Assembly: GCA_027003075.1 (NCBI GenBank) | Contig: JALWYV010000024.1 | Location: forward strand, 1-60,297 | Length of the DNA: 60,297 nucleotides | Origin: Caldifarciminota bacterium | GTDB taxonomy: Bacteria; Hydrothermota; Hydrothermia; LBFQ01 | Reading direction: 5' to 3' | In this document: piece by piece, positions 47,537-48,855 of the stretch | Numbering within the stretch: the stretch's first letter is position 1 | Layout of the letters: each line of letters opens with the position of its first letter | Program-made: the position numbers and the translations under genes | The notes under the pieces: generated by a model | What the model saw: the letters and a program-made list of their open reading frames with translations, nothing else | Told to the model about the DNA's origin: nothing | Database searches by the model: none

Positions 47537-47542
47537 ATTCTA
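47537..47542 (-). promoter_or_regulatory. -10 element for HAD gene, fused to dnaA-like stop
   Basis: TAGAAT on the minus strand, 6 nt before the TTG at 47530. Bases 47542-47540 are the TAG stop of the DnaA-like gene. Confidence 0.5.
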
Positions 47543-48700
47543 CAGGAGGTCCTTACGGATCAGTTTCAGCTTACCGTTGAACTCCGACGCCCTGTCGGGG
47601 TCGTTCTTCAGGATCTCCTTCGCCCGCTTTATGTAGTTGTAAACGCTGGCGCGGGAGCATCCCACCCTCTCTGCAATCTCCATAACACCGAAGCCCACCA
47701 ATCTCATGGCGTAGACCGCGAGGTAGAGGTTCGTACCCTTCCTGCGGGTATCCCTGACTCCGAAGAGGGACAGTATATCCACCCCATCGTCGTTTACGAG
47801 GTCGGCTATCAGGTCCTTAAAGGTGCCGAAGTCGGGTAGGGAACCGTACACGTCAATATGGGCCCTCACCCTTACGGCCACGCCTATGAGGGCCCGCGGG
47901 TTGTGCACCTTATCCACGACGTAGTCCTCGTACTCTGGAGGCAGGTTTATGCCCTGAAGTCTAAGGCGGGAGTGGAGTATACGTTTCCGGATAAGTTTGG
48001 GGTACGGATGGATGCGCAGAACGAGGTTGGACATTAGGCGGTTGCGGAAGGCTTTCGGCTTCCTGAAGCTCCTTGGTCCCATCTCGGAGGCCATCACGAC
48101 CACCCTGCCCGTTGAGGAGGCCCTGTCCATAAGGCGTGCCAGAAACTCAAGGGCGAAGGTGCGCCCCTTAAGGGTGTGGACGTCGTCTATCAGTACAACT
48201 TCGGCATCCTTAAGGCTGGAGAAGTCGGGAGTTCCCCCGTTGCGGTAGGATCCCACGAGCTTTTCCATTATCTTACCGGCCGTCAGGTAAACGGCCTTTC
48301 TTCCGGTAAAACTGGCGAGGTTAGCCGTGGCCTTCAGGAGGTGGGTCTTACCCATTCCGGCTTCGGCTACGAGGAAGACAGCGGACAGGAAACCCCCTCC
48401 TATCGCCACGCTCCTTAAGGCGGCGACGGTGAACTCGTTCTCTTTGCCGTAAAAGAAGTTATCAAAGCTCTCCCTGAAAACCACCTCCTTAGCCTTCGGA
48501 TAGACGAACTGCACCTCTATACCGAGTCTCTCTCTGACGTCGTTTATCTGCTCCGCGAACCTCTCCTGAAGCATCCGGGCCAGAAGCTCGTTCCTGCACC
48601 TGAGAACTATACCGTTTTGACTCTCCTCCACGGAGTCCACAAAGGAAAGGAGCGATCCGAGTTTATGCAGCTTCAGGAGGCCTAAGAGGGTCCGGTTCAA
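47540..48700 (-). CDS. DnaA-family replication initiator with divergent DNA-binding domain
   Basis: A 386-residue AAA+ protein. ESFDNFFYGKENEFTVAAL (near 77-95) is the typical lead into DnaA domain III; Walker A AEAGMGKTH is at 112-120 and Walker B VVLIDDVHTL at 168-177. Domain IV is helical with LYLAVYAMRLVGFGVMEIAERVGCSRASVYNYIKRAKEIL, but it lacks the GRDHTTV signature that contacts the DnaA box in most bacteria. It is a divergent DnaA or a DnaA-like paralogue. Start is TTG at 48700 with CATAAT 9 nt upstream. Confidence 0.8.
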   Translation of the reverse strand: MNRTLLGLLKLHKLGSLLSFVDSVEESQNGIVLRCRNELLARMLQERFAEQINDVRERLGIEVQFVYPKAKEVVFRESFDNFFYGKENEFTVAALRSVAIGGGFLSAVFLVAEAGMGKTHLLKATANLASFTGRKAVYLTAGKIMEKLVGSYRNGGTPDFSSLKDAEVVLIDDVHTLKGRTFALEFLARLMDRASSTGRVVVMASEMGPRSFRKPKAFRNRLMSNLVLRIHPYPKLIRKRILHSRLRLQGINLPPEYEDYVVDKVHNPRALIGVAVRVRAHIDVYGSLPDFGTFKDLIADLVNDDGVDILSLFGVRDTRRKGTNLYLAVYAMRLVGFGVMEIAERVGCSRASVYNYIKRAKEILKNDPDRASEFNGKLKLIRKDLL

Positions 48701-48709
48701 GGGAAAGGT

Positions 48710-48715
48710 ATTATG
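48710..48715 (-). promoter_or_regulatory. -10 element for DnaA-like gene
   Basis: CATAAT on the minus strand, 9 nt before the TTG at 48700. Confidence 0.4.
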
Positions 48716-48855
48716 CCGTTGAACGCCCTGAAGGTGTGGAGGGTGAGATCCCCGATCGTTCCTTTATGGCCGACTCCAGACGCAAAATTGTGGCACTTGG
48801 GGGGCAGTTTAACTCGCATGTTCAAATCACCTGGCATTTCGGGCGGAAACACCTT

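Follow-up and report, generated by a model that had tools for sequence, protein, structure and literature searches.

DnaA is the protein that starts the copying of the chromosome in nearly all bacteria. The stretch of DNA analyzed here (the window, 60,297 nucleotides) is an entire contig of a 2.1-Mb, 93% complete genome of candidate division WOR-3, and it encodes on its minus strand a DnaA homolog whose domains and upstream features are listed in Table 1. Relatives occur in the candidate division WOR-3 assemblies WFXS01000117 (98%), WGAN01000119 (77%), and JALWZG010000073 (63%). Pfam places Bac_DnaA (PF00308) on residues 77–226 of the protein with 74 bits (cutoff 23), and the top NCBIfam model is TIGR00362 (DnaA) with 114.8 bits, below its equivalog cutoff of 343.9. 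Bac_DnaA_C is missing from the Pfam list even when this is extended to E 1, and several generic helix-turn-helix (HTH) families score weakly at residues 329–366. The solved structures nearest by sequence are DnaA proteins (2z4r, 8bv3, 8btg, 1l8q, and 2hcb), with Hda next. For the full-length predicted model, the six highest-ranking PDB matches are also DnaA (Z 21.5–22.8), followed by Hda at 21.0, a near tie (within 1 Z of the sixth match) that is owed to the AAA+ domain of Hda; A. aeolicus DnaA aligns with the model across residues 72–386. Hda, DnaC, and DnaI share a related AAA+ core with the protein, and Hda nearly equals DnaA in whole-model comparison, but all three score lower than DnaA by sequence and are not known to carry a domain IV.

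Table 1. Coordinates of the dnaA-like gene, its domains, and its upstream features in the window
Feature	Position	Strand	Description
DnaA-like putative initiator gene	47540..48700	(-)	386 aa, TTG start, stop codon included
Putative domain I, residues 4-66	48503..48691	(-)	Predicted helix-helix-strand-strand-helix-helix-strand
AAA+ domain, residues 73-304	47789..48484	(-)	Walker A, Walker B, arginine finger R221, sensor-2 R269
Shortened domain IV, residues 308-386	47543..47779	(-)	DnaA domain IV fold predicted; sequence outside Pfam Bac_DnaA_C
Replaced recognition helix CSRASVYNYIKRAKEILKN, residues 348-366	47603..47659	(-)	CSR[AS]SVYNY in 8/8 orthologs
ATAATA, -10-like hexamer	48709..48714	(-)	Immediately before the TTG start; spotted by eye
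Conserved upstream element AAGTGCCACAATTT	48785..48798	(-)	First base 98 nt from first base of start codon

By eye, no Shine-Dalgarno-like stretch was seen before the TTG start (48700–48715); a loose test finds such a stretch in 37 of the 55 ORFs of the window. Several orthologs have a similar ATAATA-type start region that is free of a Shine-Dalgarno-like stretch, and a leaderless transcript is possible for this gene.

Sixty genomes of the phylum, all of them incomplete assemblies, were searched: the eight of the family to which the window belongs (f1; G000–G007, from two genera, with G000 the genome of the window itself) and 52 others. The remaining seven f1 genomes are 57–92% complete, and together with the four genomes of the sister family, f2, the f1 genomes make up the 12 of their order in this set. 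Orthologs of the 386-aa protein are present in all eight f1 genomes, with identity down to ~41%. For a census of functional residues, these eight rows and 36 other WOR-3 rows were aligned to E. coli DnaA, the reference sequence being that in the accessible part of PMC4661922. In E. coli numbering, Walker A K178, Walker B D235 and D236, and the arginine finger R285 are kept throughout f1; sensor-2 R334 is kept in seven of eight sequences (it is G in G005, while the window protein retains R), and position 211 is hydrophobic in every one. Box VII R281 is kept in none of the f1 proteins versus 29 of the 36 other rows, and R245 is F in all eight, at a position that varies elsewhere too (R in 4 of 36). 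The f1 proteins have therefore retained most of the residues used for AAA+ catalysis and assembly. The 74-bit Bac_DnaA match and the first place of TIGR00362 bear out the statement of the first-pass annotation that the AAA+ core is DnaA-like. At the N terminus, DnaA_N has no Pfam match in the 386-aa protein; the predicted fold of residues 4–66 presumably resembles that of DnaA domain I, and hhalign pairs f1 with WOR-3 DnaA N termini over 49 columns (E 8e-6, probability 83.7; a single pairwise comparison).

The first-pass annotation had further claimed that the GRDHTT-type helix of DnaA is replaced. This is what the alignment shows: the window protein has GCSRASVYNYIKRAKEIL where E. coli DnaA has GGRDHTTVLHACRKI (E. 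coli sequence again from the accessible part of PMC4661922), and the pattern [RKN].?H[STA][STV][ILVM], found in 39 of 39 DnaAs of the phylum outside f1 that combine AAA+ with domain IV, occurs in none of the eight f1 proteins. The substitutions R432C, D433S, H434R, T436S, L438Y, and H439N are each present in all eight; T435 has become A (S once), and in place of the basic-loop R399 there is D, S, or a gap. Hence, D433, H434, T435, and R399 are each kept in 0/8 f1 rows, compared to 36/36 for H434, 32/36 for D433, and 31/36 for R399 in other WOR-3 rows. The helix signature does drift across the phylum (RSHSTV in f6, RHHTTV in f5, and RNHSTI in G010), yet its His is retained. The accessible text of PMC5043019 lists positions 399, 423, 432–435, and 438–439 as contacts to the DnaA box, and that of PMC5742627 describes roles for R399 and T435 in box binding. 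The change goes beyond the helix named in the first-pass annotation: in the alignment, f1 also lacks the basic-loop arginine and, by the E. coli count, ~17 residues where domain IV begins.

Within the f1 C terminus, the replaced helix is the best conserved part, with C348, S349, R350, S352, V353, Y354, N355, Y356, R359, and A360 invariant in the eight sequences; such invariance at identities down to 41% argues for a conserved DNA target rather than decay. A precedent for a change of box specificity through the N terminus of helix 5 is provided by epsilonproteobacterial DnaA, which, in the portion of PMC5043019 available, has an altered helix 5 and boxes with a TTCAC core. That change is partial and leaves R399 in place, whereas f1 alters R399 and all of 432–436. 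Overall, the f1 protein resembles bacterial DnaA (TIGR00362; PF00308 plus PF08299) in its Walker A, Walker B, and arginine finger, and in its predicted domain IV fold and domain-I-like N terminus, but differs in its replaced or lost base-contact positions, its shortened domain IV, and a TIGR00362 score of one third of the cutoff.

The C terminus has the predicted fold of DnaA domain IV and gives the impression of a diverged domain IV rather than of a swapped-in domain. When the f1 C terminus was aligned by hhalign with WOR-3 domain IV, an E-value of 6.9e-8 was obtained over 94 columns (probability 94.6), with 1.5e-5 when only f2 was used and 3.3e-10 when WOR-3 domain IV and f2 were combined; each of these is a single pairwise comparison, made without an unrelated-HTH control. 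Modeled alone (pLDDT 87.3), the C terminus has 3pvp (two chains) and 1j1v at Foldseek ranks 1–3, but with E-values of 0.12–0.34. In VIA-align, six DnaA rows score Z 9.0–11.5 (3pvp, 11.5; 1j1v, 10.8 with an rmsd of 1.9 over 78) and the first other match, Spo0J/ParB, scores 6.2; although Z below about 13 is attainable in helical bundles through a common arrangement, the DnaA rows are well separated from the remainder and span the whole C-terminal domain. The idea, hinted at by the Pfam scores, that an HTH of the sigma-region-4 or homeodomain-like type had been swapped in was rejected: DnaA domain IV outranks the listed sigma factors as a match to the complete C-terminal fold, and the C terminus aligns end to end with the domain IV of relatives. 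A phage or plasmid origin was likewise rejected: PHROGs returned three families (the best a DnaC-like helicase loader, 40.3 bits) and the viral scan no relative, and the 50 plasmid records matched all fell below 60% identity, none reaching 80% query coverage.

Exactly one PF00308 match is found in each of the eight f1 genomes, always the ortholog of the 386-aa protein, which is itself the one match in the genome of the window. PF08299 has no match in that genome or in any of the eight (E 0.1). A search for a second dnaA with these two models thus returned none in f1, and of the two possibilities raised by the first-pass annotation, that this is the only DnaA or that it is a paralog, the genome searches favor the former. 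In f2, there is likewise one PF00308 match per genome; PF08299 is present in the DnaAs of G009, G010, and G011, and DnaA_N and DnaA_C in both proteins scanned. The replicative helicase, DnaB, is matched in all 12 genomes of the order (above cutoff in 11, below it in G007), and dnaN, the clamp gene, is present in all eight f1 genomes, in two pieces in G007.

Elsewhere in the phylum, other unusual DnaA complements were seen. PF00308 is absent from G045 (f17; locus L073), a 91% complete genome with six PF08299 matches on six contigs, three of them above cutoff; its DnaA may be missing or unassembled. In G023 (f4), the ORF L038:5527-6774 carries a DnaA-type AAA+ domain behind MshEN (PF05157, 66.7 bits) and has no domain IV match, and DnaA-like ORFs of similar length are present in other families of the class. 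At least two PF00308 stretches lie in ORFs of 626–891 aa at G043:C63:3138-4679, G044:C177, G046:C13, G049:C38, and G055:C23, which are therefore possible tandem DnaA-type AAA+ proteins.

The canonical DnaA box motif TTWTNCACA occurs twice in the window (3431 and 45017; 1.81 expected), neither copy within 2 kb of the gene, in agreement with the earlier observation that no box cluster flanks it. With one mismatch allowed, 65 sites are found versus 47.0 expected, a mild excess (none of 100 shuffles had as many); they are scattered along the window, and two lie inside the gene. For comparison, 15 canonical WOR-3 dnaA loci (L058–L072; the shorter L013–L034 were left out) contain 82 TTWTNCACA sites versus 15 in the reversed control, with at least two within 500 bp in 12 of the 15; two f5 loci among them have one site each. 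The corresponding counts are 2 versus 4 in control for seven f1 dnaA loci, 8 versus 3 for seven f1 dnaN loci (one of which has two sites less than 500 bp apart), and 8 versus 12 for six f2 dnaA and dnaN loci. Genome wide, TTATNCACA is present 38 times in G000 (27 in control), with one pair 108 bp apart and no triplets within 1 kb among the 38 sites. It exceeds the reversed control in G006 (123 versus 44), G003 (66 versus 27), G001 (21 versus 6), and the f2 genome G008 (67 versus 13), and no pairs within 500 bp are present among all 21 positions in G001 or the 100 of 123 listed for G006. No TTATNCACA cluster is seen at the gene, in the 14 f1 dnaA and dnaN loci, or in the positions listed for G000, G001, and G006.

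In 9 of 11 other genomes of the class that were compared, dnaN directly adjoins dnaA, but it was found beside dnaA in none of the 12 genomes of the order (the two genes are on different contigs in 11 and ~34 kb apart in G009). In the loci compared, a HAD phosphatase gene lies directly downstream in five of eight f1 genomes, while other neighbors are common only pairwise. The cumulative GC-skew minimum within the 60-kb contig is near 12 kb, away from the gene. Neither an origin nor a new binding motif emerged in f1 when the dnaN loci, the canonical boxes, and the upstream element were used to look for one. The proposal that the f1 origin does not use TTATCCACA boxes fits the loss of base contacts and the lack of box clusters in the loci and position lists above. 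The f2 DnaAs are like f1 in belonging to the same order, having a single PF00308 match per genome, not being found beside dnaN, and showing no box cluster in six loci; they are unlike it in keeping RDHST, RDHSS, or RNHST with PF08299, and DnaA_N in the two scanned. These f2 loci (L102, L103, L104, L112, L113, and L114) combine RDHST-like helices with no canonical box cluster around dnaA or dnaN, and a change of box may therefore predate the f1/f2 split.

The conserved upstream element is located 97–99 nt before the start codon in seven of the eight f1 genomes, the exception being G007. In G001, G005, and G006, it forms a dyad of AAGTG and CACTT, 11–12 nt apart (in G006, TTAAGTGggctaatttaaaCACTTAA), which is degenerate in G003; in G000, G002, and G004, only the left half-site is present, together with AATTT. 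The motif AAGTGNNNNAATTT matches the element, on either strand, in six of eight f1 genomes, several of whose flanking genes differ. Genome wide, it occurs at chance level in f1 (2–9 copies each versus 0–8 in control). Another 27 copies lie elsewhere in the f1 genomes; among the 16 of these that were inspected (15 loci), 10 fall within ORFs and 6 in the gaps between ORFs, and they form no cluster. One copy, with no dyad, is common to G000, G002, and G005, where two ORFs of similar length flank it. In f2, AAGTGNNNNAATTT is in excess in G009 (42 versus 5) and G011 (47 versus 11), unlike in f1, G008, and G010. The element may be a site of f1 DnaA or of another regulator, and, more speculatively, it is a candidate autoregulatory site.

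With a single DnaA homolog per f1 genome, it has to be asked whether a canonical DnaA exists in the family but was lost from the assemblies, and whether the protein descends from dnaA at all. The incompleteness of the genomes (93% for that of the window, 57–92% for the other seven) leaves some room for the former, but PF08299 is absent from eight of eight f1 genomes, whereas it is above cutoff in 47 of the 52 others, and the five without it comprise G008, in which a contig end truncates dnaA, and four genomes (G030, G032, G036, and G055) that are 77–85% complete; an overlooked canonical DnaA is highly improbable. As for descent, the protein might have arisen from a WOR-3 DnaA-like paralog (AAA+ without domain IV) that gained an HTH, with the canonical DnaA lost later. 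Two AAA+ trees were built, both leaving out L053, L054, and L055; in the second, 66 rows were reduced to 62 by removing four very long ones (three paralog or unplaced, one f5 DnaA), and the group labeled f2 domain IV in the first, which also included f20–f25 with two paralogs among them, was regrouped. In the AAA+ tree, f1 is one clade (100/100) on a long branch (1.63). The first tree joins f1 with f6 DnaAs (92/88), a pair for which both trees carry a long-branch warning. Constraining f1 with f2 costs 3.6 log units (p 0.15, not rejected), as against 12.0 log units for f1 with the paralogs, which the AU test nevertheless leaves unrejected (p 0.176). Once the four long rows are removed, the paralogs of WOR-3 form a separate clade excluding f1 (98/96). 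On these sequences, the tree does not settle the placement of f1, and a paralog origin gains some credit from the HTH scoring by sequence with Sigma70_r4_2 and HTH_23 instead of Bac_DnaA_C. However, as far as their tails were read, the paralogs of other WOR-3 families end after the AAA+ domain, with no domain IV visible by eye, and the entire predicted C-terminal fold of the f1 protein, beyond the HTH, best matches DnaA domain IV. Descent from dnaA is preferred on the basis of this domain architecture, and the paralog route appears distinctly unlikely.

The f1 protein is probably the chromosomal replication initiator of its family, a vertical descendant of dnaA whose domain IV has kept its fold but now bears a new recognition helix and lacks the arginine of the basic loop. 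Counting against this reading are the loss of box VII R281, the sensor-2 change in G005, the excess of TTATNCACA over control in several genomes and of one-mismatch boxes in the window, the weak Foldseek E-values of the C terminus, the unsettled tree, and a gene position not seen next to dnaN. The main rival to this reading is that f1 gave up DnaA-dependent initiation and that its former DnaA now regulates transcription or restarts forks, acting on a target of its own. The same sequence facts would fit such a regulator, for which there is a precedent: according to the accessible part of PMC7198777, dependence on DnaA and oriC has been lost in some cyanobacteria that retain dnaA. It is also in line with dnaN not being found beside dnaA, with no DnaA-box cluster having been seen, and with the only conserved candidate site found being a single element at the gene's own promoter, as would suit a regulator. 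Yet the protein retains its Walker motifs, its arginine finger, and a predicted fold like that of domain I, the presence of the gene in 8/8 f1 genomes down to ~41% identity implies that it is under selection, and the cyanobacterial losses are said, in the same part of PMC7198777, to accompany higher ploidy. A noninitiating role is thus considered rather unlikely, and the initiator reading the likelier of the two.

If the f1 protein is the initiator, its domain IV would bind a site other than TTATCCACA at the origin, and its ATP-bound subunits, joined through their arginine fingers, would then unwind the duplex and load DnaB in the manner of other DnaAs; the element ~98 nt upstream could, speculatively, be one of its sites and serve autoregulation. 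Should AAGTG-N11/12-CACTT be such a site, the protein would bind inverted repeats as a dimer, in place of single directional boxes. Among the literature matches listed, with most subscription journals and bioRxiv preprints outside their scope, there is no report of an f1-type WOR-3 DnaA.

The pairing of DnaA with its box is commonly regarded as near-universal in bacteria. In f1, the usual reader of the start signal is replaced by a different, conserved one, suggesting that the start of replication is probably marked by another DNA word. A bolder and more doubtful proposal is that the initiator has been retargeted to a word unrelated to TTATCCACA while keeping its AAA+ unwinding machine, making it one half of a natural orthogonal DnaA-origin pair. 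In that case, a search for origins by TTATCCACA would fail in this family. With the motor kept, the reader rewritten, and the relatives standard, f1 would show that the DnaA-box pair is exchangeable as a unit, and would be a test case for how origins move.
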